Source: a virus
Strand: one strand, 5' to 3'
DNA length: 21,770 bases
Virus record (IMG/VR): IMGVR_UViG_3300005915_001256
Location: 1-21,770 of that record
The translations under genes were made by a program, and so were the position numbers. Each line of letters opens with the position of its first letter. The first letter of the stretch is position 1. Below the pieces are notes generated by a model. The model was not told the DNA's origin. It did no database searches and saw only the letters and a list, made by a program, of their open reading frames with translations. Positions 1-14,294 of this stretch are shown piece after piece.

Positions 1-836
1 CTGCTGGTGCTATATATGCTATTGGTCGTTCTGCTGGTGGGGAGAAAAAGGCTGCTGGTGGGGAGAAAAAGGCTGCTGACGGTGCAGGAGGTGGTGAGGG
101 TACTGGCGATGAGGCTGAAAGTACTACCAAGCCTGTAGAGCATACGCACAGTAAACCTGATTTATCTCCGGGGGTTACTAAGCCTGTTAGCACACCTAAG
201 AACTCTGGTATTAAAGTACCGGGTAGCTCTTACGAAAATCCCAAGACAATATCTACAAACGCTCCTCCTCCTGTATCTCTTTCGGGTTCTTCTAATACCA
301 AACCTAATATATTTGTGCGAGATCCTCTCTCTGGGGGTCAGGGCTATTCTGCTAATAAGCTGACGGTTCCTACGGTGCCTGGAGTGGCCACTAATGAAAA
401 TAAGGATACACCTAGTCCTAAATTTGAGCGTAAGAATTATATGAAAAATAAATCCCTAACAGAAGATGAAGAAGTTGAGAAGGCCATTCCTAACGAAGTA
501 AAGGGTCCTATGGATATAGATTTAGACGGACAGACACATAGAGTTCTTGGTTCTTATACAAATATCAATGGCGAATTGTGCTATGCTGTTGCTCATAAGA
601 AGCACGGTCTTGTGCAGATGAAGGCAGATAGAGTACCTAGTGATATGGCCAAAGGTCTAATGCCTGTTATCGATGCTGCTCTGTATAAAGCAGGTTCCTT
701 GCCTACTGATGATTCCGACACTGAGAGGTTGTCTGGTAAAAATCACATGGGTGAGGGGGGCGGTTGGCCATCTCAGTCTCACGACTCCACTAAGCGTAGA
801 ATAATGGCTCGTATGGCTCCTAAGAAAGGCCGATAA
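1..836 (+). CDS. Hypothetical protein, 5' end cut off by the window
   Basis: The frame is open from base 3, so the gene starts left of the window. A GTG at 315 is in frame but has coding sequence running straight through it and is unlikely to be the start. The visible part begins with a low-complexity Ala/Gly/Glu/Lys stretch that includes a duplicated 7-residue unit, then a Pro/Thr/Ser-rich linker to about base 430. A more ordered part follows (bases 430-700) with a possible small beta domain around HRVLGSY and CYAVAHKKHGL, and then a basic tail ending APKKGR. It contains NKSL and EKAI, the K-S/A pattern common in its neighbours. The stop overlaps the amidase start (TAATG), so the two are probably translationally coupled. 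I recognise no family. Its place beside portal and amidase suggests a head or packaging-region protein, by context only. Confidence 0.8.
   Translation, partial: AGAIYAIGRSAGGEKKAAGGEKKAADGAGGGEGTGDEAESTTKPVEHTHSKPDLSPGVTKPVSTPKNSGIKVPGSSYENPKTISTNAPPPVSLSGSSNTKPNIFVRDPLSGGQGYSANKLTVPTVPGVATNENKDTPSPKFERKNYMKNKSLTEDEEVEKAIPNEVKGPMDIDLDGQTHRVLGSYTNINGELCYAVAHKKHGLVQMKADRVPSDMAKGLMPVIDAALYKAGSLPTDDSDTERLSGKNHMGEGGGWPSQSHDSTKRRIMARMAPKKGR
31..72 (+). repeat. Perfect 21-bp tandem duplication inside the first gene
   Basis: Two identical 21-base units (31-51 and 52-72) begin CTGCTGGTGGGG and end AAAAAGG; six more bases of a third copy follow. The unit length is a multiple of three, so the protein gains the 7-residue unit AGGEKKA twice. 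It lies in a low-complexity linker and could vary in copy number by replication slippage. Confidence 0.9.
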
Positions 837-1711
837 TGCAATATAAGGAGTGGTATGATCTGATACAGATTGAAGATGTTATAGAGACATTAGAGGGCCA
901 TTCTTGGGATAGAATTAGACGTATCGATCCTGACACCTACGAAAAAGCTGAAGAGGCTGGTAAGATTCAAGGTGAAGGTAGAGTTTGGGGTAAAAGAGGG
1001 CTAGGCAGTATAGACAAAGTAGTGGTACACCAAACTGCTGGTGAGGGTAGGTTGGAGGCTTTTAACAAGTACCACACTGGCCCTAATCACATCAGTATTT
1101 ATGGATTGCCTAAATTAGCATACCATTTCTATATACCTTACGAGAGAGATAGGTTCACAGGTCAGTCACTTGTTTATAAAGTAAACGCATTAGATGACTT
1201 GACCTATCATTGTAAAGGTGCTAATAGAACTGCTATTGGAGTTGTAGTTGAGGGTGCTCTCCATTCTCCTTATTGGAGAGGAGGCAGAAGACACCCTACA
1301 GATATGCAGATGAATGCTCTTAGAGGCATTTGGTTGTATCTAAAGGAAACGTTTAAGTGGGATACTGGAAGACATTTGTACAGTCATTCTCACTTTGGTA
1401 AGCCTGCTTGTCCTGGAGAAGTTATAGAGAAGTGGGTTCGTTCTATGAGAATGGGAACTGTATACTCTTTTAATACTATCGGAGAAGTTCAAAGGGTATT
1501 ACAAGAGTTAGGGTTCTATGATGGTGATATAGATGGTATGTATGGCCCTATAACTAGAAGGGCTGTAGCTTTGTTTGAGAATAGATATAAGGAATATGGG
1601 TTAACTCCTGACGGTTATTGGGATGATGTAACAGCAGATATGTTACAAAAAGTGTGGAATGGGCATATAAATGGTGAATCCGTTTTGGAGGCTATAAATG
1701 AAAAGGGCTAG
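836..1711 (+). CDS. N-acetylmuramoyl-L-alanine amidase (endolysin-type) with C-terminal peptidoglycan-binding domain
   Basis: Predicted zinc enzyme that cuts the bond between N-acetylmuramic acid and L-alanine in peptidoglycan. Residues 58-200 match the Amidase_2 / T7-lysozyme fold. The likely zinc ligands are H65 (in VVVHQTA), H184 (in YSHSHFGK) and C192 (in ACPGE); the H-C spacing of eight equals that of T7 lysozyme. Y97 in AYHFY and K189 are candidates for the catalytic Tyr and Lys. Residues 212-275 look like a PG_binding_1 domain, with VQRVLQELGFYDGDIDGMYG and then a TRRAVALFE helix. The first 57 residues are unassigned. There is no signal peptide or membrane segment, so export would need a holin or another route. 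The gene lies between the first gene and the portal, about 17 kb from the membrane-protein cassette. It could be the lysis enzyme or a virion-associated cell-wall enzyme. The ATG overlaps the upstream stop, with AAAGG just before it. Confidence 0.93.
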   Translation: MQYKEWYDLIQIEDVIETLEGHSWDRIRRIDPDTYEKAEEAGKIQGEGRVWGKRGLGSIDKVVVHQTAGEGRLEAFNKYHTGPNHISIYGLPKLAYHFYIPYERDRFTGQSLVYKVNALDDLTYHCKGANRTAIGVVVEGALHSPYWRGGRRHPTDMQMNALRGIWLYLKETFKWDTGRHLYSHSHFGKPACPGEVIEKWVRSMRMGTVYSFNTIGEVQRVLQELGFYDGDIDGMYGPITRRAVALFENRYKEYGLTPDGYWDDVTADMLQKVWNGHINGESVLEAINEKG

Positions 1712-3401
1712 TTTAGGTTTTGCTTCTGATCACGAGGATGGTGGGGGAGATTATTCTAGTCATTTAGACGTGTTACATAACATGGCTGATGAGTGGCGTC
1801 ACCTGCAAAAAGGCTGGAAAAAGATGCCTGCTGGCGGCCCTGCTAGGCAGCCAAGATCTATAGTTAACGATCCTCTAGCGCTCACATACTCTCAGGGATA
1901 TAAAGAGCGAAGGTCTACTCCCAACTTTTCTATGTTGCGTAGGCTCGCTCATCAAGTAGCTTTGGTTGCTGCTATCCATAATACAAGAATCATGCAGGTA
2001 GCGTCATTCTGTCAGCCATACGCCAGAACTAAGCAGTTTGGGTTTGAGCTTAAGTTCAAGGATACTGACACTGTGATGACGGAGTCGGATAAGCGATTTG
2101 CTAAGGATTTATCCGAGTACATCATGTCCTGTGGTCGTCCTGGGGAGTCTTCTTTCGCCGGTCGTAGAGACAATTTCGAAGACTTCACTAAAAAGGTAAT
2201 CAGAGATAGGCTGGTTTTCGATCAAGCTACATTCGAGATCATCCCCACTAGAAGGGGATTACCTTTTGAGTTTATTCCTGTAGATGCTGCTACTGTTAGA
2301 ATCGCTGCGGAAGATTTAACTACCGCCAACAAACTACGCGAAAAGTTGATGGGGCAAGGATTTCATGGGATGATTAGGGACGAGCCTTGGGCTCCCTCTT
2401 TTGAGCCTCCTACTAACGGAAATAGGATTACGCATGTTCAGCTTATTAGGGGTCAGATTGAGAATATTTATTATGAAGGAGAGTTGGGTTTTTGTATCGC
2501 CAATCCCCGTTCAGACATTTATGCTAATGGCTATGGATATTCTGAGCTAGAGCAGCTAATCACGATTATTACTTCTCATCTACATGCAGAAGAATATAAC
2601 CGTAGAGTATTCATGCAGGGATCAGCTCCTAAAGGCATCTTAAACATTAAAGGGGATAACATTCCTCCTGAGATGTTAGAGTCTTTTAAGAGGCAGTGGC
2701 ATGCGATGGTTACAGGTGTAGAGAACGCTTGGAAGACTCCTGTACTACAAGCTGATTCTGTTGAGTATAATAGTATTCAAAACACTAACCAGGAAATGGA
2801 ATATAACCTTTGGTTGGAGTATCTTACCAAGATCATCACCGCTGTGTACCTTATTGATCCTGCAGAGATTAACTTCGATATTGCTGCTCCTGCTTCTGGT
2901 AATCCAATGTTTGAGTCCACGGGTGAGTGGAAGATTAAGAAGTCTAGGGATAGGGGCTTGAGGCCTTTGTTGAGATTCTATGCTTCCTGTATTAATGAAC
3001 ATATCATAGACAAGATCGATCCCAGGTTTCACATAGTATTTGTAGGTCTTGATGAGCTTTCAGATAAAGAAAGAATCGAACTAAGACAGCAGCAAGTACA
3101 GACGTTTAAGACTCTTAATGAAGTAAGAGACGAAGAGGGACTAGAAGCAATCGACGACGGTGACGTAGTGCTGAATCCCGCTTATCTGCAGTATGTGCAG
3201 ATGCAACAAGAACAGAAGGCGATGGAACAGCAACAGGGTGAAGAAGGAGATCCTCAGGCAGAAGGGGAGCAACAAGGAGGTGGTGGGGCACCTCAAGAGG
3301 AAGCACCTGCTAAGGAAGCGCCTCCAGAAGAGGAGCAAGGTGCTATGTCTCCTGCTGATATGCATAATTTGCCTGTGTATAAGAGTGGGCTAATTATATA
3401 A
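1698..3401 (+). CDS. Portal protein
   Basis: Forms the dodecameric ring at the capsid vertex through which DNA enters and to which the neck attaches (family knowledge). The 567-residue protein has the signature of HK97/SPP1-type portals: GYGYSELEQL at 277-286, a helix with EEYNRRVFMQGSAPKGIL at 298-315, the FKRQWHAMVTG stretch followed by TPVLQ, and later the helix leading into ITAVYLIDPAEINF. After about residue 495 it becomes a Gln/Glu/Pro/Gly-rich tail, probably disordered, ending in VYKSGLII. The ATG lies 14 bases inside the amidase gene with GGAG at 1687-1690 as a well-placed ribosome-binding site. The stop overlaps the next start (TAATG). Confidence 0.92.
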   Translation: MKRASLGFASDHEDGGGDYSSHLDVLHNMADEWRHLQKGWKKMPAGGPARQPRSIVNDPLALTYSQGYKERRSTPNFSMLRRLAHQVALVAAIHNTRIMQVASFCQPYARTKQFGFELKFKDTDTVMTESDKRFAKDLSEYIMSCGRPGESSFAGRRDNFEDFTKKVIRDRLVFDQATFEIIPTRRGLPFEFIPVDAATVRIAAEDLTTANKLREKLMGQGFHGMIRDEPWAPSFEPPTNGNRITHVQLIRGQIENIYYEGELGFCIANPRSDIYANGYGYSELEQLITIITSHLHAEEYNRRVFMQGSAPKGILNIKGDNIPPEMLESFKRQWHAMVTGVENAWKTPVLQADSVEYNSIQNTNQEMEYNLWLEYLTKIITAVYLIDPAEINFDIAAPASGNPMFESTGEWKIKKSRDRGLRPLLRFYASCINEHIIDKIDPRFHIVFVGLDELSDKERIELRQQQVQTFKTLNEVRDEEGLEAIDDGDVVLNPAYLQYVQMQQEQKAMEQQQGEEGDPQAEGEQQGGGGAPQEEAPAKEAPPEEEQGAMSPADMHNLPVYKSGLII

Positions 3402-4840
3402 TGGATGCAAAAATAGCCATTTTAGCGATGGGAGTAAAGCTAGGTAAGGTGAGCAAGGTCCAGGCTCTGTCTGCTTTGAGTATTAAGCAGAAGAAAGAGT
3501 TTATGGATATGCTCAATAGTAAGAAAATGTTTGGTCAGTCTATGTGGAAAGGTGGCATTGCTCCTTCGGAAGGTGAGTTGTCTGTAGAAGACTTGATGGC
3601 TTTTGTGCCTTCTGAGAGTGTGCGAAACAGTTTTCTGAGAGGACCCAACCAGGAACCTCTTAACAAGCCCAGTAAAGCTCCTTACAATCAAGGACCACAG
3701 CCTGATGCAGTACTGGACGATCCTTTAGTGAGAAAGTCTATGGAGGCTAGAGGATTTGTGAATATAGGAGGAGACTACGCTCATATAGATCACGATCCAT
3801 TAGACCAGGATTCTGGTAGGTTTGATCACTGGAGTGCTGGAGAGCATAAGGCTGCGGCTATCAAGTTTTCAAGAGAGGCTGATAAGTTAGATGCTGCTAG
3901 AGACAAGGTAAAGACTCAGAATGGTGGATCTGATTACCACAAAACTAATGCAGCTCTAGCAGAACACGATAGCGATAAACTTAACGATTCGGATAGTTAT
4001 AGGGCAGCGGCTCGTAAACATAGGGTAGCTGCTAAGATTAAAGGGCTTTCAAAGTCAGGAGATAATAAGATGGAAGATGTTTTGGTTAAGGCATGTAAGA
4101 GCTGTAGTTCTGCTAAGCATGAAAAAGGTTTTGAGGATACGGTACCTGGGGAGAAGTTAGAGAAGACAAAAGACATTCTTGTAGAGAAGTCTTGGCCTTT
4201 CAACGCAGAGAAGAGAACCGTCAATGCAGCCAACGCTTCTATGAAGAAGCAAGCTAAAGAGGGTTCTTTAAACGACCAGAATAGGGGGGATTACGATAGG
4301 ATCATTAGTGCAGCCTCAAAGGGACCAAAAGATAGGCCTCCTATGTCTAAAGGATATAAAGAAGCTATAGCGTTATTAAAAGGAGAGCCTATAGACTATG
4401 CTAAAGACATTCTTGTAGAGAAGTCTTCTGAGGCATATTGGCGAGGACAGGGAGATCAAGCTAAAGCCTCCCCTGTTAAAGGGAATAGGCATGTAGCCAA
4501 CACAGCTGCTAAAATAGCCGCAGAGACTTGGGGAGAAGACCATCCTACTACTCTGGCTATGAAGGAGAAGGCTGAGGGTCTTATGGCTGATCACAAAGAA
4601 GCAAAGAGTATGCCAGCAAAGAGAGGGTTTTTTAGTAGGTCTATTGAGGCTAATGCTGAGGCCCAGCGTTTGGGTACTATCAGTTCTCTTACGCCTGCGC
4701 AGGGGATGAGCAAGTCTGTTAACGATAGTATCAATCTCAGGTTCCAGGACGATAGAGTGGAACAGGAGCGTTTTGCTAAGGCACGCCAGGAGTATTACAA
4801 CTCCGGTGTTAACTGGCATGAAGACGATTTACTTAAATAA
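3401..4840 (+). CDS. Hypothetical protein, probable internal head protein with repeated DILVEKS motif
   Basis: 479 residues, not recognised. It is mostly hydrophilic and helical, with a His/Asp-rich stretch (GGDYAHIDHDPLDQD, then EHKAAAIKF) near residues 124-160. The motif KDILVEKS occurs twice, 78 residues apart, encoded by an identical 25-base sequence. Further K-S/A sites are LVRKSM, LSKSG, LVKACKS and MSKSV. The start shares its A with the portal stop and I see no good Shine-Dalgarno before it, so it probably depends on reinitiation after the portal. Position directly after the portal is typical of minor capsid, internal or injected proteins. The many K-S sites suggest processing by the phage protease. 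Function is otherwise unknown. Confidence 0.85.
   Translation: MDAKIAILAMGVKLGKVSKVQALSALSIKQKKEFMDMLNSKKMFGQSMWKGGIAPSEGELSVEDLMAFVPSESVRNSFLRGPNQEPLNKPSKAPYNQGPQPDAVLDDPLVRKSMEARGFVNIGGDYAHIDHDPLDQDSGRFDHWSAGEHKAAAIKFSREADKLDAARDKVKTQNGGSDYHKTNAALAEHDSDKLNDSDSYRAAARKHRVAAKIKGLSKSGDNKMEDVLVKACKSCSSAKHEKGFEDTVPGEKLEKTKDILVEKSWPFNAEKRTVNAANASMKKQAKEGSLNDQNRGDYDRIISAASKGPKDRPPMSKGYKEAIALLKGEPIDYAKDILVEKSSEAYWRGQGDQAKASPVKGNRHVANTAAKIAAETWGEDHPTTLAMKEKAEGLMADHKEAKSMPAKRGFFSRSIEANAEAQRLGTISSLTPAQGMSKSVNDSINLRFQDDRVEQERFAKARQEYYNSGVNWHEDDLLK
4169..4427 (+). repeat. Pair of identical 25-bp direct repeats encoding KDILVEKS
   Basis: The same 25 bases occur at 4169-4193 and 4403-4427 (starting AAAGACATTCTTG, ending AGAAGTCTT). 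The offset of 234 bases is exactly 78 codons, so both are read in the same frame. Exact conservation at DNA level suggests a recent duplication or conversion of this short segment; the sequence between the copies is not obviously repeated. Confidence 0.92.
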
Positions 4841-4849
4841 GGAATTAAT

Positions 4850-5815
4850 ATGATCACAAATAAGCCATTAAAACGAACTCTCAATAAGACCGTAGTTGCA
4901 GCTACCCAGGATGCTAAGCCTGAGAAGCTTACCAAGTCTGTTCAGGATATTTTCAGAGATAACTTGAGTAGGACTATGCCAGATGATGATTACTCTCTGG
5001 ATGCGTTCTGTAAGTCTATACCTATACCAGAGGATCACCAGAAGGTTCTCAGGGACGGTACGCCTACTCATGCGCTACCTGCTGCTGTAAAAAAGAAGTT
5101 ACCACAGTACTATGTTGCCGCCGTTAATGGGGTAAAGGAGTTGGAGTCTAGCCCGGCTAACGACTCTCAAGCAAGCGATATTAGCCATTTTGCGGTAGGC
5201 ATAAAAGAGCACCTCGATGGTCTTACTGACGTTAAGAACAGCGAGAAAATCCGTGCTGGTAACGATAGTAGATATGCTGAACAGGCTGAGCACGGTAATG
5301 ATATTGTACCGGAAGCTGCTCGTCCCCTCGATGTGAATGGGAATATGCGTAAGGCAGCCCCTGCTCCAGAGCACGAATCTGAAGCTTATCACGAAGCTGA
5401 GATGTCTAAACATGAGCAAGCTCAAAAGCATTCTACTGATTTTGTGGTTAAGCTTCATCAAGCGCTAAAGGGCGAGAAGCATTATGGAGGTAAGGATGGT
5501 TTTGGAGAGAAGATTAACGAGGTTCTAAGGCAACACCACGAGGACCACCAAGCTGCTTGGGGTACTCATCTCGATGAGGTGAGTAAGAGTGCCGATGCCG
5601 GTAACTTGAAAGACTCCCACGATGCCCTAGTAGGAGAGTTGGAAAAGGCTGCTCGCAGGTTCCGAACTACTGCTCACAGAGCCGGTTCACGAGGATCTTC
5701 TTCAGCTAATAGAGCTGGGGTAGCTGCTGGTGGCCAAACTAAATACATTAACCCTCAGAAAGTAGCTGCTGCCAAGAGAATGTCCGCTCTAGGCGCTGGA
5801 AAGAAGACAGCTTAA
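4850..5815 (+). CDS. Hypothetical His-rich helical protein with basic C-terminal tail
   Basis: 321 residues, not recognised. The N-terminal half is mixed charge with LTKSVQDIF and CKSIPIPED. Residues about 170-250 are strongly helical and rich in His, Glu and Ala (spaced His as in EAYHEAEMSKHEQAQKH and RQHHEDHQAAWGTH). The last 60 residues are rich in Arg, Ser, Gly and Ala and end in a basic KRMSALGAGKKTA tail, which would suit contact with DNA. The ribosome-binding site AAGGA overlaps the upstream stop. It also carries EVSKSA, MRKAAP and LEKAAR sites. Probably a virion-internal protein, by context and composition only. Confidence 0.83.
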   Translation: MITNKPLKRTLNKTVVAATQDAKPEKLTKSVQDIFRDNLSRTMPDDDYSLDAFCKSIPIPEDHQKVLRDGTPTHALPAAVKKKLPQYYVAAVNGVKELESSPANDSQASDISHFAVGIKEHLDGLTDVKNSEKIRAGNDSRYAEQAEHGNDIVPEAARPLDVNGNMRKAAPAPEHESEAYHEAEMSKHEQAQKHSTDFVVKLHQALKGEKHYGGKDGFGEKINEVLRQHHEDHQAAWGTHLDEVSKSADAGNLKDSHDALVGELEKAARRFRTTAHRAGSRGSSSANRAGVAAGGQTKYINPQKVAAAKRMSALGAGKKTA

Positions 5816-7110
5816 TGGCGTCTAACAATCATCCAAATTATGGGTCAAGACCTGCTTTAAAGAGGAACTACGTTAAGGACACTAGTGAAAAGGGTGTTTC
5901 TTTTAGTCTTCCTGGAACGGGAGATAGACCGGGCACACTTTCTGGTACTACAAGGCATATGAACGCTTTGAAGCCTGGGATTAGGTCTAGTGAGCTAAGT
6001 AAGGGAATAGGTACTACTCATTTTGCTGTTATGAACAGTTTAAAGAGTGATGACGGTAAGTGGGATGCAGCTAAGATTAAAGCCAAGGCTACTCCTTTGC
6101 GGGGGTCTAAGGGTCATCCTCTGCTTCCTAATGCTGACGATGAGAAAAACTTGTCTAGAGATAAGCATAAAGAGCTTAAAGGGTGGCACGAAAAGCGAGC
6201 TACCTCAGCCAAGTTAAATATGAATCATGAAGGTGGTGAGTACCACGATATGATGTCTGGTTGGCATGGTAGCGTGGTGGATAAAAAGCAGGGTGAACTT
6301 TCTTCTGGAGATTTAGATATGAATAAGAGTTTAAGTATTGGGGATCACCCTGACGAAGAGATGAAGACTGTTGTGTCTAGGTTTATTGAGCGCGGGACTA
6401 GGCTAGCTCACGCAGACCCAGAGCATCTAAAAGAGGTGCTTGAGGGCCTTCCAGAGGCTGCAGAACTGCCAACTATCTTGATGCAGGCAGATCGGCTACA
6501 CTCTCAGGGCGATATGTACTCTAAAACGGCTCAAGGTGACCCTCTAGACGACGATCAGTCTGGTGACCTTGACGAGAGTAAGGGAGCTTTGGCTGAGCTG
6601 TTAGTGGCCGCTGTGCTGGCTGGAGATAGCTTTCCTATTGAGGATAGCGCAAAAGCTACTATAGTAGACACGATAGGCCACCATCTTATGCAGCCTCCTC
6701 CCCCAGATCCTGGAGAATTTGAGGACCAGGAAGGACAAGAGCCTGTTCAGAAGTCTATTACTACTTGGGCAGATGCTTTTAATATCCTGTATGGGGTAAA
6801 GGCTGATCAAAAGGAGCAAAAGCTACAAAAGGCTGTGGAGTCTGGGCAAGCTATTCCTTTGTCTGATGATGACATTGCTGCATTTCAGCAGATACTGCTG
6901 GATTCTATTGGGTGGCTCAAAGTTCACCACGACAAACATTTTACGGATATCGACGGAGATATCCCAATCGCTCAGGAGCATTTGGATGCGCAAGAAGAGG
7001 ATACAGAGGAGCCTGAGCAGAAAAGCAAAAAAAGTGCTGGACAAAGCGAGAAAGGGCCTGTAAAAAAATCTGTGTGGGATGATGAAGCCCTGTACCTACT
7101 GTTTGACTAA
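5815..7110 (+). CDS. Hypothetical acidic protein, probable internal head protein
   Basis: 431 residues, not recognised. The N-terminal 140 residues are basic and His-containing (for example WHEKRATSAKLNMNHEGGEYH). A helical, acidic middle follows, from DEEMKTVVSRFIERG to about residue 290, then a proline run (QPPPPDPGEFED) and an acidic C-terminal part. K-S sites are MNKSLSI, VQKSITTW, KKSAG and VKKSVW; the last sits 13 residues before the end, and LQKAVES is also present. The ATG shares its A with the upstream TAA, with GGAAAG ahead of it. Spacing and composition link it to the two genes before it and the one after, as one block of probable capsid-internal proteins. Confidence 0.83.
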   Translation: MASNNHPNYGSRPALKRNYVKDTSEKGVSFSLPGTGDRPGTLSGTTRHMNALKPGIRSSELSKGIGTTHFAVMNSLKSDDGKWDAAKIKAKATPLRGSKGHPLLPNADDEKNLSRDKHKELKGWHEKRATSAKLNMNHEGGEYHDMMSGWHGSVVDKKQGELSSGDLDMNKSLSIGDHPDEEMKTVVSRFIERGTRLAHADPEHLKEVLEGLPEAAELPTILMQADRLHSQGDMYSKTAQGDPLDDDQSGDLDESKGALAELLVAAVLAGDSFPIEDSAKATIVDTIGHHLMQPPPPDPGEFEDQEGQEPVQKSITTWADAFNILYGVKADQKEQKLQKAVESGQAIPLSDDDIAAFQQILLDSIGWLKVHHDKHFTDIDGDIPIAQEHLDAQEEDTEEPEQKSKKSAGQSEKGPVKKSVWDDEALYLLFD

Positions 7111-7127
7111 TTTCCAAAGGACACACT

Positions 7128-9371
7128 ATGCAATCATTTAGCAGTAGTCTCACGCCGGTCGAGTACTTGGCTAAGTCTATATCTGGGCGCGGCCCCATGC
7201 CCCACCACAAATACATTCGTAGAGAGTGGAGTGGCAAGGGGGATAAGTGGGTGTATATCTACCATGAGTCTCCTCACAAGAACCACGGATTCGAGCATGC
7301 AGAGACTGATGCGCCTCATAGCCTTCCTATACATGAAGCGTCCCGGGATCACTGGTTCCACGGCCCTGAACATGCGTACAAATTCTCTCATTGGAATAAT
7401 GTGGCAGATCAAGTAGGAGGACTCCTAGACGAAGGCAATAAGGGAAGTTTTCGTTTGGAGGGCATTTCTCATGATAAATACGCCGATGTAAACGTAACCC
7501 CAGGCAATAAGAACCCTATCCATATCAAAGATAACTTCTCAGGTAAGATGCGTAGTACGTTCCTTACTGATGCAGATTCTTTGAAGGCTTGGGTAGCAAA
7601 GCAAGGAAACCAGCCAGAGCAGGTGTCGCTGACCGGGGATGGCGAGGATCAGTGGCATCACAAGATTGTATTGTCTAAACCTGCAAAAGGTAAGACTGCT
7701 CCTACCTGGGCTAGAGTACACTTTAACCAGGATCACCCCCAGTACAACGAAAAAGACGGGAAGAATAGAGATTTTCGTAGAGAGTTTACTTATAAAGATT
7801 GGTGGTCTAAACGAGTAGGGCAGCGAGGTGCATCTTTAATTGACGTGTCTGCTGAGGAAAAGGCTAGTCGCCCATATAGGTCACTACTTGAAGAGGGTAA
7901 AGTTCCTATTAAGTCAGTTGAGCGCACGTTCGATTGGCAGGGCACTAAGAAGAGAAGGGATTTTTGGGAGGTTGACTGGTCTGCCTTGAAAGAGCAGACA
8001 GGAATAGACAAGCAAGAATTCATTTGGGGTAAGGGAGATAAGGCCTGGATCAAGGAAACGCGTGACTGGGAAGAGGGGGGAGGTAAAGGGGCTCCTCCTC
8101 AAAGAGGCGGTATTTTCGGTGAGTCGAGTTCCCTTATCTGGCATGCAGCTTGGAGAGTTGGTAGTAAGTATTTTATTAACGATCCTACTTTTTTGAGCCG
8201 AAAAGTGCCTGGGGCTGGTGATACTAAGGTAGAAGATGGGTTTATCAATACTATTGTTAACGCTATTGAAGATGGTATGATAGGTACTCCAGAGAAGCCG
8301 GGAAGTATGCTTGCTGGGTATAACCCAACCACAAAACACTACGTCCGTCAGACGGGTACTTATGCCGTAGCTAAGTTCTCAACATATGCGTACTCTATGG
8401 CTAAGTGGATAGCTATTAAGACGTGTGCTGCCGAGCAAGAGAAGAGACGTTCTACTTCAGGAGGCCTCCCAGTTGAGACTATCGCTTCTGGGAACAAAGA
8501 TAAGGCTAGGAGAGGTTATGCAGGTATCTCAGATACTCCTGCAGAGCCTGACATCCCTAAGGATACTCCTGCTCCTAAGACTCTGATTCGTAAGCGTGGT
8601 GCAGGCTCAGATAAGGGGGTATCTAAGGAGTCTTCAGAGGTTTTCACTAAGTGGAAATTCATGCAGAAGAAGCTGTTGAACGACAGTCTCAAAGAGTTAA
8701 CTGCTATAGATGGCGAAAAGGGAGACGAAGTTGGAGAGCTGCGTACTGCTATAGATGATATGGATGATATCAAATCTTTGCAAGATGCTATTAGCTGGAG
8801 TTCTTCTGCTCAAGATAACAATCATACCCTAAACCGGTTAGGCGTTCTGGTACATGCTGGTCAGGTAGAGGGTTATTTATCTGATAGCGAGATTAATAAA
8901 TATGAGGAGTCTACGGGAGCAGCCGGGTCTTCTTATAGTAGGAAACAGGTGTCCGGTGCTGTAGACGCCTTCTTTGATTCTGTTCCTGAGAAGTACGGCT
9001 CAGAGGCTCCTTTCGAGGGGGAAGAACTTGCTCTTGTGGGTAAGGTGGCTAATTATTTAGCTCCTCACATCGTCTCTGGTGACGCCTATATGCACTCAGG
9101 CAGGGCGGCTAAGAAATTTGCCTCTGAGATTTCCTCTGTTAAGGATGCTACTGGTGATACTCCTTGGAAGAATGATCCAGAAGGTTTTGTGAATCAGATG
9201 CTGCAGGAAGAGAATTTCCTGGATAATTTAAGGGATCATATTACTAAAGACCTTCGCTCTACTATGTCCTCTTCGTCCAAGCCAAAAGACCCTAAGGTTA
9301 CCAAGTCTATGGCTATGCTTCATATAGCTATGGAAGACTTTAAAGAAAGATTAAAGGAACAGTATAACTAA
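7128..9371 (+). CDS. Large hypothetical protein with a possible sigma-70 region-2-like patch
   Basis: 747 residues. The N-terminus carries LAKSISG, followed by HHKYIRREW and KWVYIYHE (residues 26-47), a Trp/Tyr-rich basic patch. Residues 80-310 look like an alpha/beta region of no family I know. Around 334-450 the spacing and wording recall sigma-70 region 2: LIWHAAWRVGSKYF, then AGYNP, then KFSTYAYSMAKWIAIK at 416-431 and GGLPVE at 445-450. FSTYAY followed by an aromatic/Trp helix is the hallmark of region 2.2-2.3 in bacterial sigma factors, but an extra loop lies between AGYNP and FSTYAY, and I see no region 4 helix-turn-helix. The C-terminal 250 residues are helical and acidic, with TKSM near the end. 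AAAGGA precedes the start, and the stop overlaps the next ATG. The sigma link is a guess; the open reading frame is solid. Confidence 0.82.
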   Translation: MQSFSSSLTPVEYLAKSISGRGPMPHHKYIRREWSGKGDKWVYIYHESPHKNHGFEHAETDAPHSLPIHEASRDHWFHGPEHAYKFSHWNNVADQVGGLLDEGNKGSFRLEGISHDKYADVNVTPGNKNPIHIKDNFSGKMRSTFLTDADSLKAWVAKQGNQPEQVSLTGDGEDQWHHKIVLSKPAKGKTAPTWARVHFNQDHPQYNEKDGKNRDFRREFTYKDWWSKRVGQRGASLIDVSAEEKASRPYRSLLEEGKVPIKSVERTFDWQGTKKRRDFWEVDWSALKEQTGIDKQEFIWGKGDKAWIKETRDWEEGGGKGAPPQRGGIFGESSSLIWHAAWRVGSKYFINDPTFLSRKVPGAGDTKVEDGFINTIVNAIEDGMIGTPEKPGSMLAGYNPTTKHYVRQTGTYAVAKFSTYAYSMAKWIAIKTCAAEQEKRRSTSGGLPVETIASGNKDKARRGYAGISDTPAEPDIPKDTPAPKTLIRKRGAGSDKGVSKESSEVFTKWKFMQKKLLNDSLKELTAIDGEKGDEVGELRTAIDDMDDIKSLQDAISWSSSAQDNNHTLNRLGVLVHAGQVEGYLSDSEINKYEESTGAAGSSYSRKQVSGAVDAFFDSVPEKYGSEAPFEGEELALVGKVANYLAPHIVSGDAYMHSGRAAKKFASEISSVKDATGDTPWKNDPEGFVNQMLQEENFLDNLRDHITKDLRSTMSSSSKPKDPKVTKSMAMLHIAMEDFKERLKEQYN

Positions 9372-9850
9372 TGGAAGATTTTGTTAACAATCCTAGAGAC
9401 GTAGAGAAGCACTTAGACACTCTTAACAAAAGTTGCGGGGACTTAGAGAGTCTGTGCAATCAGTGTGGCGGGTGCTGTTGTGCTGAGGTAACTACCAAAT
9501 CAGTGGACAACCACTTTATAGGGGTAGTAGTGGATGAGCTTCCCTGCAAGCATCTGATTAGGAAGTCTGGGGATACGTTTGAGTGCTCTTGCTATGAGGA
9601 GAGGTTCGAAAAGACTGATTGGTGTTTAGATCTGTTCTCAGCTATGGTTAAAGGGGCTTTGGTAGAGACGTGCCCTTATGTACAGGATTTTGATGGATAC
9701 AGAGGTAAGCAGTTCCTAAATGACCATGAGTACTTAATTATACGTCCTGAGTTGGTTAAAGCTATAAAAGATAACTTAGAATTATTGAAGTCTATTGATG
9801 CTTTCGATGAGTCTGATATCGAGTCTTTCCTGGGGGAAAGTATTGGATAA
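9371..9850 (+). CDS. YkgJ-like cysteine-cluster (zinc- or iron-binding) protein
   Basis: 159 residues with eleven cysteines. C29-x2-C32-x2-C35-C36 (LCNQCGGCCC) is the CxxCxxCC signature of the YkgJ / UPF0153 family, thought to chelate zinc or iron. Further family-like cysteines are C59 in PCKHL, C74 in CYEERFE, C85 in DWC and C101 in CPYV; the order CxHL, then CxYExR, then WC, matches the family pattern. Cellular YkgJ proteins have no firmly known reaction. This copy sits among virion genes and carries four K-S sites (NKSC, TKSV, RKSG, LKSI), as its neighbours do, which is odd for a housekeeping-type metal protein. The ATG overlaps the preceding TAA with AAAGGA upstream. Confidence 0.8.
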   Translation: MEDFVNNPRDVEKHLDTLNKSCGDLESLCNQCGGCCCAEVTTKSVDNHFIGVVVDELPCKHLIRKSGDTFECSCYEERFEKTDWCLDLFSAMVKGALVETCPYVQDFDGYRGKQFLNDHEYLIIRPELVKAIKDNLELLKSIDAFDESDIESFLGESIG

Positions 9851-10088
9851 GGTTGATGATGTAGTTTGTAGCTGTGGGGAATTTATTGTTAAGTCTCTAG
9901 AAGGCAAGACTAAGGTGCGTTCTAAGATCCTTCTGTTTGAGGGAGGTAAAACCCTGGCTAAGTGTCGTAGGTGTGGTGGTATGCACGAAGTCCCTATACA
10001 AATGCACTATGTAGAAGACAATGTGGATAATATAATTAAATCGAAGAAAAGGCGGGTGTACGTGAGAAATAACTTGACAGATAAGTAA
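9843..10088 (+). CDS. Small zinc-ribbon protein
   Basis: About 81 residues if started at TTG 9843. This start has GGGGGAA at 9832-9838 as its ribosome-binding site and overlaps the upstream stop by eight bases. A longer reading from TTG 9795 lies deep inside the upstream gene and has no good ribosome-binding site. Two cysteine pairs, VCSCG and CRRCGG about 30 residues apart, form a zinc ribbon of the kind seen in Mu Com and many small phage proteins. Between them lie KTKVRSKILLF and an IVKSL site. The C-terminus is basic. It may bind nucleic acid or act as a small regulator; the specific role is unknown. The -35-like element of the downstream promoter candidate overlaps the last codons. Confidence 0.65.
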   Translation: MDKVDDVVCSCGEFIVKSLEGKTKVRSKILLFEGGKTLAKCRRCGGMHEVPIQMHYVEDNVDNIIKSKKRRVYVRNNLTDK

Positions 10089-10106
10089 AAGTCAGGCATA
10101 TACAAT
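10074..10106 (+). promoter_or_regulatory. Candidate sigma-70 type promoter
   Basis: A perfect TTGACA at 10074-10079 is followed by an AT-rich stretch holding three imperfect -10 options: CATATA at 10097 (17-base spacer), TATACA at 10099 (19) and TACAAT at 10101 (21). The -35 is ideal but each -10 is a compromise between match and spacing, so activity is uncertain. It sits just before the capsid operon gap. Confidence 0.4.
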
Positions 10107-10109
10107 ACT

Positions 10110-10141
10110 TAGGTATGTTTGATAAGTAGTTTCGATACCTA
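10110..10141 (+). other. 7-bp inverted repeat just downstream of the promoter candidate
   Basis: TAGGTAT at 10110-10116 and ATACCTA at 10135-10141 are perfect complements around an 18-base loop. It would lie at the 5' end of a transcript from the candidate promoter. It could be an RNA hairpin or a protein-binding site. Confidence 0.45.
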
Positions 10142-10153
10142 TATCGCCTCCAT

Positions 10154-10192
10154 AAAGGGAGAGCCTTACCGGCCTCCTTTTATTTTTGTTTT
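10154..10192 (+). terminator. Rho-independent terminator-like hairpin before the capsid operon
   Basis: AAAGG (10154-10158) pairs with CCTTT (10176-10180), and inside it AG/CT and GCC/GGC pairs continue with single-base bulges around the loop TTACC. TATTTTTGTTTT follows immediately, as expected for an intrinsic terminator. It lies between the zinc-ribbon gene and the protease gene, so it may end upstream transcription or act as an attenuator for the capsid operon. Confidence 0.6.
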
Positions 10193-10222
10193 AGGATATG
10201 CGTTTTAGGACATACAGGTTAG

Positions 10223-11059
10223 ATGGTAGATAACAGTTATACTACAGAAGACTTCAATTTCTTTGTTCCCATGCAAAAGGCTATGCCTGCTAAAGTTGCT
10301 GGTGATACTAGAGATCGTATGATTCAGGGTATTGCCTCTACTGATAATATAGACTTGCAAGGTGAGATAGTTAAGCAGACCGGGTTAGATCTAAAATACT
10401 TTTTGAAAAGTGGTTATCTTAACAACGATCACAAACCCGGGGCAGAAAATAAAGTTGGAGAGCCTGTAGAGGCTAGGATTACTAAAGAAGGTTTGTTTGT
10501 AAAAGGATTCCTTTACAAGAACCATAAAGCAGCAGACGGTTATTGGGAGTTACTAAACGCCCAGGTAGCCGATCCGCAGTCAAAACGCAGAGTAGGTTTC
10601 TCAGTTCAAGGCAAAGTAAAGAAGCGCAGTGGTAATGTAGTAGAAAAAGCCTGGATTCAGGATATTGCTGTTACTACCGCCCCAATCAACCCCAACACAT
10701 GGGCGGATCTTGTTAAATCGCTATCCGCAGGTCACGCCACAGTTAACCAAACTGACGGGTCTGCTCTGGGCGTGGAATCACTACTTACTGATAAGAGAAG
10801 TAAAGACTCAGAAAAGAGTCTAAAGAATGTTACGTATCCACCTGCATTGTTCAGTAAGTCTGAGGTAGTACAGGAATTACAGCTTAAAAAAGGTTGGTCT
10901 AGATCTACTGCAGAGGTGGTAGCATCTTATTTGTTGTCTGATAACGATTCTGATGGGTTATGTAGGTCTGAGGCTATTGAAGTAGTTAAATCTGCTCAAG
11001 GCTGGTCTGATAAGTCAGCAGAGTTTGTTGTAGATTATCTGTTCAATAAGAAAAACTAG
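10223..11059 (+). CDS. Prohead (head maturation) serine protease, S78-like
   Basis: Cleaves capsid and scaffold proteins inside the immature head (family knowledge). Residues 25-160 show the Caudovirus prohead protease fold: catalytic His at H70 (YLNNDHKPG), the GLFVKGFLY strand, catalytic Ser at S127 in GFSVQG, and the TTAPINPNTW strand after it. Length to residue 161 is usual for the catalytic domain. Residues 162-203 closely match the N-terminal part of the capsid protein (LVKSLSAGHATVNQT against LRKALSAGYAITNQT; 15 of 21 identical from LSAG to VESL, then SLKxVTY), probably a self-cleavage or targeting segment. Residues 212-273 are two related units, each with GWS-x-x-(T/S)AE-x-V-x-x-YL. 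The ATG has only a weak AGG ribosome-binding site and follows a terminator-like hairpin. It heads the capsid operon. Confidence 0.9.
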   Translation: MVDNSYTTEDFNFFVPMQKAMPAKVAGDTRDRMIQGIASTDNIDLQGEIVKQTGLDLKYFLKSGYLNNDHKPGAENKVGEPVEARITKEGLFVKGFLYKNHKAADGYWELLNAQVADPQSKRRVGFSVQGKVKKRSGNVVEKAWIQDIAVTTAPINPNTWADLVKSLSAGHATVNQTDGSALGVESLLTDKRSKDSEKSLKNVTYPPALFSKSEVVQELQLKKGWSRSTAEVVASYLLSDNDSDGLCRSEAIEVVKSAQGWSDKSAEFVVDYLFNKKN

Positions 11060-11070
11060 GAGGTTTTTAA

Positions 11071-11682
11071 ATGGCAGCGGAAACGATTCAGAAGTCCCAA
11101 AGGGGCAACTTGCACCAAGGTAGTTCCCCTAAAGAGTGGGCGGGCTCTAGGTACTCGAAAGCTAACGACAAGACTCCAGGAACGTCTAACAACACGGACT
11201 TCTCAATGTCTAAGGCGTTTGAGGCTCTGATGCAGAGTAACGAAGTTATCAGTAAGGCTATGGAGGAGTCCCCGTTCTTGGCTGAGTTTGTTAGCGAGTT
11301 TGTAGAGGTTCTAAAGTCTTTCGGTGAGGAAGTCTCAGAGACTATCGCTAAGTCACAAGAGGAGCAGCTTAAGTTTAATCTAGAGCTAGAGGACGTAGTT
11401 AAGTCACTAAACGAGCAGACGGATGCAGTAGATACCCAGACGCAGCAATTAGCTGAGGGAGATGTTCTATCTAAGTCAGCTCGTGCTCCTGAGGTACTTG
11501 TTAAGTCACATCCTGGTGACGTGTCTGAGACGCCTTCCTACTCCAAAGAAGAGATTAACGATGCTTTGTGGAAGTCATTCGAAGCTGGCGAGATCAGCGG
11601 TCTAGACATTACTAAGTATGAAACTTCAGCCAATGGTCAGCTAGACGCGTCTGTAGCACGTAAAATCGGCCTAAGTAATTAA
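11071..11682 (+). CDS. Scaffold-like protein rich in K-S/A sites
   Basis: 203 residues, acidic and mostly helical, between protease and capsid protein, the usual place of a scaffold. Of its 16 lysines, 10 are followed by Ser or Ala (for example TIQKS, VISKA, VLKS, TIAKS, DVVKS, VLSKS, LVKS, LWKS), at intervals of roughly 10-30 residues. This regular spacing would let a protease cut it into short peptides. The last 40 residues (LWKSFEAGEISGLDITKYE onward) resemble the end of the next protein and may bind the capsid protein. A perfect AGGAGG lies seven bases before the ATG, stronger than most in the window and consistent with high expression. The scaffold role is inferred from position, composition and length; no family is recognised by sequence. 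Confidence 0.75.
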   Translation: MAAETIQKSQRGNLHQGSSPKEWAGSRYSKANDKTPGTSNNTDFSMSKAFEALMQSNEVISKAMEESPFLAEFVSEFVEVLKSFGEEVSETIAKSQEEQLKFNLELEDVVKSLNEQTDAVDTQTQQLAEGDVLSKSARAPEVLVKSHPGDVSETPSYSKEEINDALWKSFEAGEISGLDITKYETSANGQLDASVARKIGLSN

Positions 11683-11702
11683 TTTTAACGGAGGGCGATA
11701 TT

Positions 11703-12386
11703 ATGGAACAACAGGAAGTTAAAATCACTGAAGAGGAATTGTGGAGAGGCTTGAACAAGCTAGAGGAACAACTATCCCTACTAAAGAAGTCTGGCTCTGA
11801 GGAAGAGTCTGATGCTCATGAGAAGAAAGAGGACGAGGCTCGTGCAGCTGCTGTCGCGCCTAAGGGGGATAAGCCTCCTAAGAAAGAGGAAGAAGCAGAA
11901 GAAGACGACACTGAAAAGTCTTTAGAGGCAGCCGAGGAGATTGTTGCGAAGTCAGAGCAGGAAGATGCTACTGGTATTGAGGTATCAGACTTTCTCATGG
12001 AGCTAGTACAGACCTTTCGCAAAGGTATGGTTGACTATAAAGATCATATAGTAGATATGGTTAAGTCCAACCACGAGGCAACTGAAGAGATCGTTAAGAG
12101 CATTGCTGGGTATACGAGAGATAGCCAGGAAACTCTGTGCAAGTCTGCGGACGCCATCAACAGTGCTTGGGACATGCCTGCCAGGGGTCCAAAGTCTGTG
12201 GTAGGCTCAGACGGAACATCACCCCAGGGGAAGGCTATGACTCCTCTACAGCAGGTGGAGTTCCGGCAGTCTCGCGCAGCTAAATTGAAGACTATGGTTA
12301 AGGGTGGCGAAGCCACTATGTTAGATTTGGTTAGATATGAGAAGAGTGGTGAGCTTTCCGACGAGTTAGCAAAGTCTCTTAATTAA
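11703..12386 (+). CDS. Second scaffold-like protein, acidic coiled coil with K-S sites
   Basis: 227 residues, very rich in Glu, Lys and Ala in the first 85 (likely a coiled or disordered segment), then helical. Nine K-S sites are present, among them TEKSL, IVAKS, DMVKS, EIVKS, TLCKS and the extreme C-terminal LAKSLN. The end (TMLDLVRYEKSGELSDELAKSLN region) parallels the end of the preceding gene, so the two probably share a C-terminal domain. GGAGGG precedes the ATG. Likely scaffold or an internal core protein that is degraded or processed on maturation. Two successive scaffold-like genes may reflect a duplication or a core/scaffold pair. Confidence 0.75.
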   Translation: MEQQEVKITEEELWRGLNKLEEQLSLLKKSGSEEESDAHEKKEDEARAAAVAPKGDKPPKKEEEAEEDDTEKSLEAAEEIVAKSEQEDATGIEVSDFLMELVQTFRKGMVDYKDHIVDMVKSNHEATEEIVKSIAGYTRDSQETLCKSADAINSAWDMPARGPKSVVGSDGTSPQGKAMTPLQQVEFRQSRAAKLKTMVKGGEATMLDLVRYEKSGELSDELAKSLN

Positions 12387-12436
12387 GTTTTGTCGTTGTA
12401 GTGAGCAATCGCTAGAAAGAAAGTAGGAATAAACAG

Positions 12437-13879
12437 ATGGAATCTATGGTGAGTTTGAGCAATTATGACGGTTTAAATGGCTTTGGCCAAACGTCTTTGA
12501 GCGAAGTTGATGAACTTCGTAAAGCACTGTCTGCAGGGTATGCTATTACCAATCAGACTGGTGGATCGGCTATGCGCGTTGAGTCCTTGGAGCAAAGTCT
12601 CAAGGTAGTAACGTATAGCAATAAGCATATTGTGTTGTGGCGAAAGATTAACAAGAGCCCAGCGTTTTCAACGGTCGAAGAGTACAACCAGTTGCTGAGC
12701 TACGGTGCTACTGATCGTGGAGCATTCACCCGAGAAGGTGAACTACCTCAGTCCAGTGACACCAGCTACGCCCGCAGAACTGCGCTGGTCAAGTATTTAG
12801 GTACTACCCGAGAAGTTACTCATCCTATGACTCTGGTAAATCCGGCTCATGGTGATGTGGTAGCGATGGAAAACCAAGCTGGTATTCTGTGGCTGCTAGA
12901 GCGTCTAGAAGACTCTCTGTTCCACGGCGACTCTTCACTAGCGTTTGATGGTGAAGCAGAGCAGTTTGATGGTCTAGACTCCTTGATTGATACTACAGCA
13001 TTCGTCGATCTAGAAGGCGGCGCAATGACTGAGGACGCAATCGAAGAAGCATCCAACCAGATTTTCGAGCATTTCGGCTATCCAAGCGATCTGTTCGCAG
13101 GTCCCAAGCCTTTGAGCGATCTCGTGAAGCAGTTCTATCCTCGCCACCGTGTGAGTTTGCCTGCTCCTGAGAACGGTACTATCGGCCAAAGTATCAATAG
13201 TATGGCTACTCAGGCTGGTTTGATTCAGTTCAACCCCGACCTATTCTTGCGTAAGACCAAGAGTCCCCCAGCAGCAGCCACTTCACCAAGTGCGCCTGTT
13301 GCTACTGGCGCGGTCACTGCGGCTGTCTCTGGTACTGCTAACTCAGCAGAGTGGGACAAGCAGTTGGGTGAGGTTACTGGAGACACTTTATTCTCCTATG
13401 CGGTAACAGCGTGTAACCGTTTTGGCGAGTCCGCTCCAGTATACGAAGATATCACTATCGCGGCTGCAGATATTAATAACCAGGAGTCAGTAACTCTTCA
13501 GGTGGTTCTAGGAGCTGCTCTAGGTCCAAACCCACCAGAGTTCCTTCGTATTTACCGCACAGATCCTTTGACTGCTTTCAGCACCACTCCTGCGGACTTC
13601 TACGAGATCCTGAAGGTTCCTGTGTCTTCACAGACTGCAGCGGCCACTATGGTAGCCGTAGCAACCGATCGTAACTTCATCATCCCCGGTACGTACCAAG
13701 GGTACATGGGTGAGATGAGCCCGAACGTTCTGACCTTCCGCCAGTTGGCTCCTATGATGAAGCTAGACCTAGCAGTACTAGCACCTGCCTACCGCTGGAT
13801 GGTATTGATGTATGGAGTACCGTTGCTTTATACCCCACTCAAGTGGACGCGCCTGATCAACATCGGAGATTTGGCATAA
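12437..13879 (+). CDS. Major capsid protein with inserted Ig-like domain
   Basis: 480 residues. The N-terminal part (LRKALSAGYAITNQTGGSA, then VESLEQSLK, then IVLWRKI) and the end (LAPAYRWMVLMYGVPLLYTPLKW) match capsid proteins of the large SPO1/A511-like phage group as I remember them. This family uses the HK97 fold. By comparison with the protease, K29-A30 is the likely maturation cleavage site, which would remove 29 residues. Residues about 275-415 form an insertion that starts with a Pro/Ala linker, contains SYAVTACNRFGESAP and LRIYRTDP, and looks like an Ig- or Fn3-type domain exposed on the shell. Codon choice leans to cgt/cgc for Arg and ctg for Leu more than in neighbouring genes, consistent with high expression. 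A hairpin follows the gene. Confidence 0.9.
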   Translation: MESMVSLSNYDGLNGFGQTSLSEVDELRKALSAGYAITNQTGGSAMRVESLEQSLKVVTYSNKHIVLWRKINKSPAFSTVEEYNQLLSYGATDRGAFTREGELPQSSDTSYARRTALVKYLGTTREVTHPMTLVNPAHGDVVAMENQAGILWLLERLEDSLFHGDSSLAFDGEAEQFDGLDSLIDTTAFVDLEGGAMTEDAIEEASNQIFEHFGYPSDLFAGPKPLSDLVKQFYPRHRVSLPAPENGTIGQSINSMATQAGLIQFNPDLFLRKTKSPPAAATSPSAPVATGAVTAAVSGTANSAEWDKQLGEVTGDTLFSYAVTACNRFGESAPVYEDITIAAADINNQESVTLQVVLGAALGPNPPEFLRIYRTDPLTAFSTTPADFYEILKVPVSSQTAAATMVAVATDRNFIIPGTYQGYMGEMSPNVLTFRQLAPMMKLDLAVLAPAYRWMVLMYGVPLLYTPLKWTRLINIGDLA

Positions 13880-13902
13880 GCGGCTTTAGTGGTTAATATA
13901 GG

Positions 13903-13932
13903 ACCAGGAGAGGCATAAACCCCTCTCCTGGT
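13903..13932 (+). terminator. Strong hairpin after the capsid gene
   Basis: ACCAGGAGAGG (13903-13913) and CCTCTCCTGGT (13922-13932) form a perfect 11-bp stem around an 8-base loop. There is no clear U-run after it (TCCTCTCGATTT), so it may be a weak terminator or an mRNA-stabilising or processing structure. Confidence 0.6.
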
Positions 13933-13952
13933 TCCTCTCGATTTAGGTGTGT

Positions 13953-14294
13953 ATGGAAGAATTAGAGAAAGCGTTGAAGATTTTTAAGGATGAACTGCTT
14001 AAGGCTGGTTTAGTCTCTAATAAATTCAAATGTATGAATCCTGGAACGTTTAAAGAGGACACCAAGAACTTAACGCCTGATCAGCATAAAGATCAAGAGT
14101 ATGCCCATAGAAGTGCTATTACTGCTATGGGCGGGGTGCTTAAGAACGCTAGACGAATGAGCGAAGACTCGCATCAAAACGGGCACCCAACTTTTAACGA
14201 TACTATATCGAAATTTCATGCAGACATGGAAGGCCATGTTGAGACAAGTACTATACTAGCAGGTATGCATAAAACAGCTGCGAAATCTAAGTAG
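13953..14294 (+). CDS. Small His-rich hypothetical protein
   Basis: 113 residues from ATG 13953, chosen because AGG at 13945-13947 is five bases upstream; a GTG at 13947 would add two residues but overlaps that site. Helical, with many histidines (LTPDQHKDQEYAHR, SHQNGHPTF, KFHADMEGH, AGMHKTAAKSK). The His spacing recalls the helical stretches in the proteins at 3401-7110. Located between hairpins directly after the capsid gene. It might be a minor head protein. No family recognised. Confidence 0.72.
   Translation: MEELEKALKIFKDELLKAGLVSNKFKCMNPGTFKEDTKNLTPDQHKDQEYAHRSAITAMGGVLKNARRMSEDSHQNGHPTFNDTISKFHADMEGHVETSTILAGMHKTAAKSK

Follow-up and report, generated by a model that had tools for sequence, protein, structure and literature searches.

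Why does one short pattern, a lysine followed by serine or alanine and preceded two positions earlier by a hydrophobic residue, recur through the head proteins of a virus? The stretch of DNA that raises this question, record IMGVR_UViG_3300005915_001256 (21,770 bases in all, hereafter the window), is a virus fragment carrying an SPO1-like head module. An earlier note on this DNA had proposed that an S78-like protease cuts after this lysine, such that many of the proteins encoded upstream would be internal to the head and processed. In our assessment it is highly probable that the head-maturation protease of the phage recognizes this motif as its cleavage code, and that the processing scheme given below holds as a whole. 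This reading draws on the enrichment of the motif, on a code that carries over from one protein or phage to another, on sites that lie at domain borders, and on the mature ends recorded for relatives, and by extension the window phage's own proteins are probably cut.

Gene order and relatives

The head module encodes, in order, the portal, six extra genes (3401-10088), the protease, two scaffold-like proteins, and the major capsid protein (Table 1). SPO1 has the same order minus the six extra genes. The phrog_752 match of the capsid protein, together with the portal-protease-scaffold-capsid order, places the phage in the SPO1-like (Herelleviridae-type) capsid family, and its nearest annotated relative is Exiguobacterium phage vB_EalM-132, with 45.7% capsid identity.

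Immediately 5′ of the portal lies a lysin gene with Amidase_2 and peptidoglycan-binding domains (836-1711). The frame of the first gene (3-836) is open back to the edge of the window, and thus the GTG at 315 that had been taken as its start is probably internal. Downstream of the module, the proteins at 14378-14941 and 16306-18921 are weakly similar to each other (phmmer E about 5e-4 to 8e-4), possibly through a repeated adhesion or tail domain.

Table 1. Features of the window, with the sites predicted in each product (K, the lysine preceding a predicted cut)
Feature	Position	Strand	Remarks
Portal	1698..3401	+	phrog_12; lacks an N-terminal site; K562, close to the C-terminal end, fits only the plain motif
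Accessory protein g3401	3401..4840	+	PWM sites after K112, K438; two copies of ILVEK|S
Accessory protein g4850	4850..5815	+	sites after K29 (EKLTK|SVQD, nt 4934-4936), K55, K246
Accessory protein g5815	5815..7110	+	sites after K171, K313, K339, K418
Accessory protein g7128 (747 aa)	7128..9371	+	a site close to each terminus: K16 (EYLAK|SISG, nt 7173-7175), K726 (PKVTK|SMAM, nt 9303-9305)
Cys-rich accessory protein g9371	9371..9850	+	leader site K20 (DTLNK|SCGD, nt 9428-9430); also K130, K140
Small gene preceding protease	9795..10088	+	K33 (EFIVK|SLEG); in 24 loci, window included
Head maturation protease (S78-type)	10223..11059	+	phrog_1028, E=2e-56
Protease segment copying the capsid post-cut N-terminus	10715..10792	+	starts at K165; K|SLSAGHATVNQTDGSALGVESL
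Scaffold-like protein 1 (g11071, 203 aa)	11071..11682	+	phrog_15087; sites after K8, K48, K62, K82, K94, K111, K135, K145, K168
Scaffold-like protein 2 (g11703, 227 aa)	11703..12386	+	phrog_15087; nine K-S; PWM sites after K72, K83, K132, K147, K224
Major capsid protein	12437..13879	+	phrog_752, E=5e-107; predicted cut after K29
Capsid segment common with protease	12521..12598	+	K29 onward
Gene 3′ of capsid gene	19946..20449	+	two PWM sites, K38 and K49

The motif is enriched in the window, but unevenly

Observed counts of [VLI]xK[SA] were compared gene by gene with composition shuffles, with PWM scoring alongside. Pooled, the 14 genes up to position 14294 hold 43 copies against 10.7 expected (p=0.0003). 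The signal is very strong in scaffold-like protein 1 (8 against 0.60; PWM 9 against 0.30), scaffold-like protein 2 (5 against 0.73; PWM 5 against 0.30), and g9371 (4 against 0.22). The counts given previously for the two scaffold-like proteins are exact, with 10 of the 16 lysines in the first preceding Ser or Ala and the second holding its nine K-S pairs. Enrichment is moderate to weak in g3401 (5 against 1.66, p=0.022; 10 against 3.06 for [VLIMF]xK[SGA]; PWM count not significant), g4850 (3 against 0.99, not significant; PWM 3 against 0.30, p=0.0035), g5815 (3 against 1.07, not significant; PWM 4 against 0.40, p=0.0005), and the protease (3 against 0.97; 8 against 1.73 for [VLIMF]xK[SGA], p=0.0007).

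The shuffled-sequence count that the earlier note called for thus reveals a real enrichment, although not one present in almost every protein up to the capsid gene, as had been claimed. Specifically, g7128 is not enriched (2 against 1.7; PWM not significant), and its K[SA] pairs, 8 in number, fall below the 11.6 expected. The amidase gene (g836) has zero copies of [VLI]xK[SA], and neither the first gene nor the portal exceeds its shuffles. Similarly, the motif is indeed scarce in the beta-rich proteins downstream, but this scarcity is no special signal, because these proteins have few lysines and observed counts lie close to the expectation from composition.

When the scaffolds, protease, and capsid protein are set aside, [VLI]xK[SA] still occurs 25 times against 7.8 expected in the genes up to 14294, and 19 times against 5.9 in the portal-to-protease genes. 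The plain pair K-(S/A) is not significantly raised in either case (57 against 50 outside the scaffolds, protease, and capsid protein; 44 against 38 in the portal-to-protease genes), and therefore it is the hydrophobic residue at P3 that carries the signal.

The proposed code, refined across SPO1-like phages

The same pattern is found in 58 non-redundant SPO1-like loci that include a capsid protein and a protease, which come from related phages such that the counts are not independent. In these loci, [VLI]xK(S/A) is found 467 times against 56 (8.3-fold) in the scaffold genes of the protease-to-capsid interval, 254 against 45 (5.7-fold) in proteases, 131 against 52 (2.5-fold) in portal-to-protease genes, 54 against 27 in portals, and 92 against 40 in capsid proteins. 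The ratio is about one in the first three genes 3′ of the capsid gene (40 against 57) and in later genes (188 against 150).

A scan of all 400 residue pairs following [VLIMF]x in the scaffolds ranks KS first (495 against 39, z=72), followed by KG (132 against 29) and KA (110 against 33). With the lysine of K-(S/A) as P1, positions P4 and P5 favor D or E, P3 is L, M, I, V, or F, P2 favors R, N, S, or A and avoids D and G, and P2′ favors F, L, I, or M and avoids Ser and Pro, the latter almost never being found. The refined code would thus read (D/E)-(D/E)-[LMIVF]-x-K|S (>G,A)-hydrophobic. The form proposed earlier, hydrophobic-x-K-(S/A), survives as its core, amended to admit M or F at P3, to rank S over G over A at P1′, and to include a hydrophobic residue at P2′.

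The window record covers only 21.8 kb, and a whole-genome scan was made with the complete genome of SPO1. There the ranking of 187 ORFs is headed by the scaffold (11 against 0.39) and has the protease in third place and the portal in sixth, while all ORFs outside the head module together hold 45 copies against 32. The SPO1 tape measure protein (L009:22051-24723) has one K-(S/A) where 11 are expected, as if the motif were avoided.

Two other loci have unusual gene structures. In Chryseobacterium phage MA9V-3 (L015:12336-13934), the pre-capsid gene aligns to the protease and then continues into a K-S-rich scaffold-like tail, and by this alignment is a natural protease-scaffold fusion. In another phage (L053:10001-11974), the capsid match spans 1974 bases rather than about 1440, with the N-terminal part in a short ORF of its own (10001-10258), which suggests that an intron or other insertion lies within the gene.

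The proposed code and recorded capsid cuts

A matrix trained only on scaffolds from other phages was run on further proteins. Because its training sites had been picked as K-(S/A), it chooses mainly among the K-(S/A) pairs of a given protein. The best-scoring lysine is the conserved N-terminal one in 55 of the 58 capsid proteins, which share a common ancestry; HK97 and T5 provide the independent cases. In the window capsid protein, K29 (DELRK|ALSAGY, nt 12521-12523) is the sole site above the PWM threshold in 480 aa, and its position is invariant among nine diverse phages. This protein is predicted to mature by a cut after K29, as judged from these scores and from the ends recorded for its homologs. 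Specifically, the mat_peptide of Listeria phage A511 Cps in GenBank X91069 starts after K23 (DALK23|SFTTG), the residue homologous to K29. Among the structures of the Kayvirus major capsid protein (PDB 9row, 9rox, and 9roz), the mature chain of 9row, with its start as deposited, begins at S25 after VVK24.

For HK97 gp5, the top-ranked lysine is K103|S104, the documented cut site (PMC10275583), and the deposited mature chains begin at residue 104. The next three sites lie in the delta domain that is removed. The top four sites in the T5 capsid protein (AY543070) likewise all fall inside the delta domain that is cut away. The mature chain deposited for this protein begins at residue 160, after K159, and the PWM does not place this actual cut, HLK|AVNQ, among its top sites. 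The capsid protein of mycobacteriophage LittleE matures to DLDRNN (PMC3706429), and thus Lys|Ser is not universal in HK97-type phages. Taken together, the A511, Kayvirus, and HK97 ends, the transfer of the matrix, and the sites that flank the protease support the proposal that the S78-type protease cuts after Lys, and would extend it to the window phage.

Predicted sites border the catalytic domain of the protease

The catalytic domain of the window protease spans about residues 29-166, and an AlphaFold model is ordered over about these residues and disordered at 1-28 and 167-208. Self-cleavage is predicted after K19 (VPMQK|AMPA, nt 10277-10279) and K165 (ADLVK|SLSA, nt 10715-10717). Sites mapped over the 58 proteases concentrate in two places, residues 20-29 and K165 (55 of 58); the C-terminal tail holds a smaller group, and the stretch 30-158 holds few. 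These clusters match the borders of the folded domain and thus fit self-release on both sides of it. Conserved K-S sites also occur inside the domain at about 105, 116, and 142, where folding of the protease probably protects them. Many proteases have an internal K-S site (ALKKSNAP) in the region corresponding to window positions 10535-10573 (residues 105-117), for which the scheme would not account if it were accessible.

The match to the PHROG head maturation protease profile makes this protein a member of the S78 / HK97-type group. Pfam PF04586 matches 11 of 32 homologs (E<=0.01) and gives no match to the window protease itself. H70 and S127, conserved in 98% and 100% of the 58 proteases, are the likely catalytic His and Ser. 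The top 10 PDB matches of the model are all herpesvirus proteases (best E=6e-5, probability 1.00), with TM scores of only 0.25-0.40 for a model that includes its disordered tails.

Accessory proteins and portals

Do the substrates extend beyond the scaffolds, protease, and capsid protein? Across 72 portal-to-protease genes, the matrix finds 104 sites against 21.6 expected, and in the first 40 residues of the accessory proteins it finds 31 against 5.1. The portals hold 31 sites in their first 35 aa, against 3.8 under a uniform spread. Many relatives' portals have an N-terminal site, whereas the window portal does not. The chain of a deposited portal structure is the full-length sequence and thus does not bear on trimming. 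The leader site of g9371, HLDxLxK|S, lies directly before the Cys-rich domain and is kept in seven of eight aligned homologs. This protein (9371-9850) belongs to a CxxCGxCC Cys-rich family present in 12 loci, the window included, and encoded between portal and protease in the aligned cases.

If only the scaffolds, protease, and capsid protein were true substrates, the accessory-protein sites would be incidental. In the window, the PWM gives no significant result for g3401 or g7128, the simple motif is only borderline in g5815, and for most of the accessory genes no homolog can be detected. A search of phage records found no homolog of g3401 or g7128, and the fetched loci contained none of g3, g3401, g4850, g5815, or g7128. 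We nevertheless regard so restricted a substrate set as rather unlikely given the enrichment of the class, the N-terminal bias of its sites, and the conservation of the g9371 leader. The preferred reading, in which accessory proteins are also substrates, therefore retains the claim that many upstream proteins are processed, on the strength of the class-level statistics and of g4850, g5815, g9371, and, by the plain motif, g3401, but not for every gene. We infer that these proteins are packaged in the head, and by analogy with T4 their leaders may serve as packaging tags.

The gene at 19946..20449, with two PWM sites where 0.17 are expected (p=0.008), has homologs in four other loci and lies directly 3′ of the capsid gene in two of these (L017 and L025). 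It is possible that it encodes a further head protein.

Composition and host proteases as alternative sources

The motif could instead be a by-product of composition, or of helical repeats in charged coiled-coil proteins, rather than a cleavage code. The scaffolds are indeed rich in Lys, Ser, and Glu, and K-(S/A) in the accessory genes occurs mostly as composition predicts (57 against 50). However, composition does not account for KS standing first of 400 pairs after [VLIMF]x (z=72), nor for the SPO1 tape measure protein having one K-(S/A) instead of 11. Moreover, the T4 head scaffold gp22 has a Glu code of its own and not the Lys code, and the same matrix finds the capsid and HK97 cut sites. 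We therefore consider this explanation very unlikely. Recognition of the sites by a host trypsin-like protease, which would also cleave after Lys, is hardly credible, given preferences at P3, P1′, and P2′ stronger than trypsin needs, sites that concentrate in the head module and border the phage protease's own catalytic domain, and a code common to phages of Bacillus, Bacteroides, and Chryseobacterium.

A segment shared by the protease and the capsid protein

The stretch that follows the predicted capsid cut, ALSAGYAITNQTGGSAMRVESL, has a counterpart in the protease, where it follows K165. This shared segment, noted previously as starting LVKSLSAG in the protease and LRKALSAG in the capsid protein, is real (alignment z=16.7). 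Searched against the fetched loci, its profile matches almost every protease and capsid protein; the only other matches are a split capsid gene and a single weak one. The pair scores significantly in 38 of the 58 phages. Scores within a phage exceed those between phages (88.9 against 61.2; permutation p=0.0002), but the best score is usually not with a segment's own partner, indicating that matching is at the level of the clade. Recent gene conversion was considered as a source of this likeness. Of 711 codons, 277 are identical against 254 expected, and thus the segments are not clearly more alike than codon usage predicts and do not have the appearance of recent conversion.

Both segments may bind the same partner, either the scaffold or the inner shell. 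Through such a partner the protease would be drawn into the prohead, from which its own cut would release it. The copy of the capsid arm offers a hint as to how the enzyme may be recruited.

A proposed processing scheme and its reach

In the immature head, the protease would free itself by cuts flanking its catalytic domain and would next cut both scaffold-like proteins at many sites, such that the pieces can leave the head. It would also remove 29 residues from the capsid protein and trim or cut several of the portal-to-protease accessory proteins, near the N-terminus in g4850, g7128, and g9371. A broader proposal, which we advance only tentatively, joins three elements. First, a hydrophobic(P3)-x-P1|Ser grammar would run through the phage-herpesvirus maturation protease superfamily, and the P1 residue would differ between lineages: Lys for HK97, T5, and SPO1-like phages, Glu for T4 and phiKZ, and Ala for herpesviruses. 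Second, Lys|Ser leaders would be the packaging tags of a large set of injected head proteins in SPO1-like phages. Third, the protease would be anchored in the prohead by its capsid-arm copy and released by its own cut.

Isolated examples of capsid cuts at Lys|Ser or Lys|Ala are already known. A general Lys code was not found described in the literature searched, which lacks most subscription papers. What appears new is a Lys code with multiple substrates and defined preferences from P4 to P2′ across SPO1-like phages. Such a code would allow the poorly known internal head contents of these phages, among them phages of Staphylococcus, Listeria, and Enterococcus that have been used or suggested in therapy and biocontrol, to be predicted from sequence. 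It names candidate packaged proteins, and would account for the clearing of scaffold from a large head in which processing is not Glu-directed. Cuts made after Lys would go unseen in ordinary proteomics with trypsin.

Comparison with known processing systems

In HK97, where the gp4 protease is the S78 prototype, the cut in gp5 falls at the lysine that the scaffold-trained matrix ranks first of all those in gp5. However, HK97 joins scaffold and capsid protein in one chain, whereas the window phage has separate scaffolds and many accessory proteins with sites. A511 Cps belongs to the same capsid family and its K23|S24 is homologous to K29, but its annotation covers the capsid cut only and describes no general code. 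Similarly, the Kayvirus capsid protein begins at S25 at the homologous site, and the sequence of that entry records no other substrates.

In T4, the gp21 protease breaks the core down into small peptides and also shortens internal proteins at their N-termini (PMC9958956). The N-terminal sites in the accessory proteins and portals of SPO1-like loci resemble this leader processing, except that P1 is Glu in T4 and Lys in the window phage. As a control, T4 gp22 yields 10 copies of the Glu code against 2.4 expected and one of the Lys code against 1.2. The SPO1 scaffold, like those of the window, is the reverse, with the Lys code and without the Glu code. In the two window scaffolds the Glu code ([LI]xE) occurs 3 times against 2.7 and 3 times against 3.7, which does not indicate T4-type processing. 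The phiKZ-like phage SPN3US uses gp245 to process many head proteins, with Ser preferred at P1′ (PMC10052503). Its motif, A-x-E|, again differs at P1 from the Lys of the window phage.

The best fold matches of the window protease model are the herpesvirus assemblin proteases. The cut pattern of these enzymes is also hydrophobic-x-P1|Ser, with Ala at P1.
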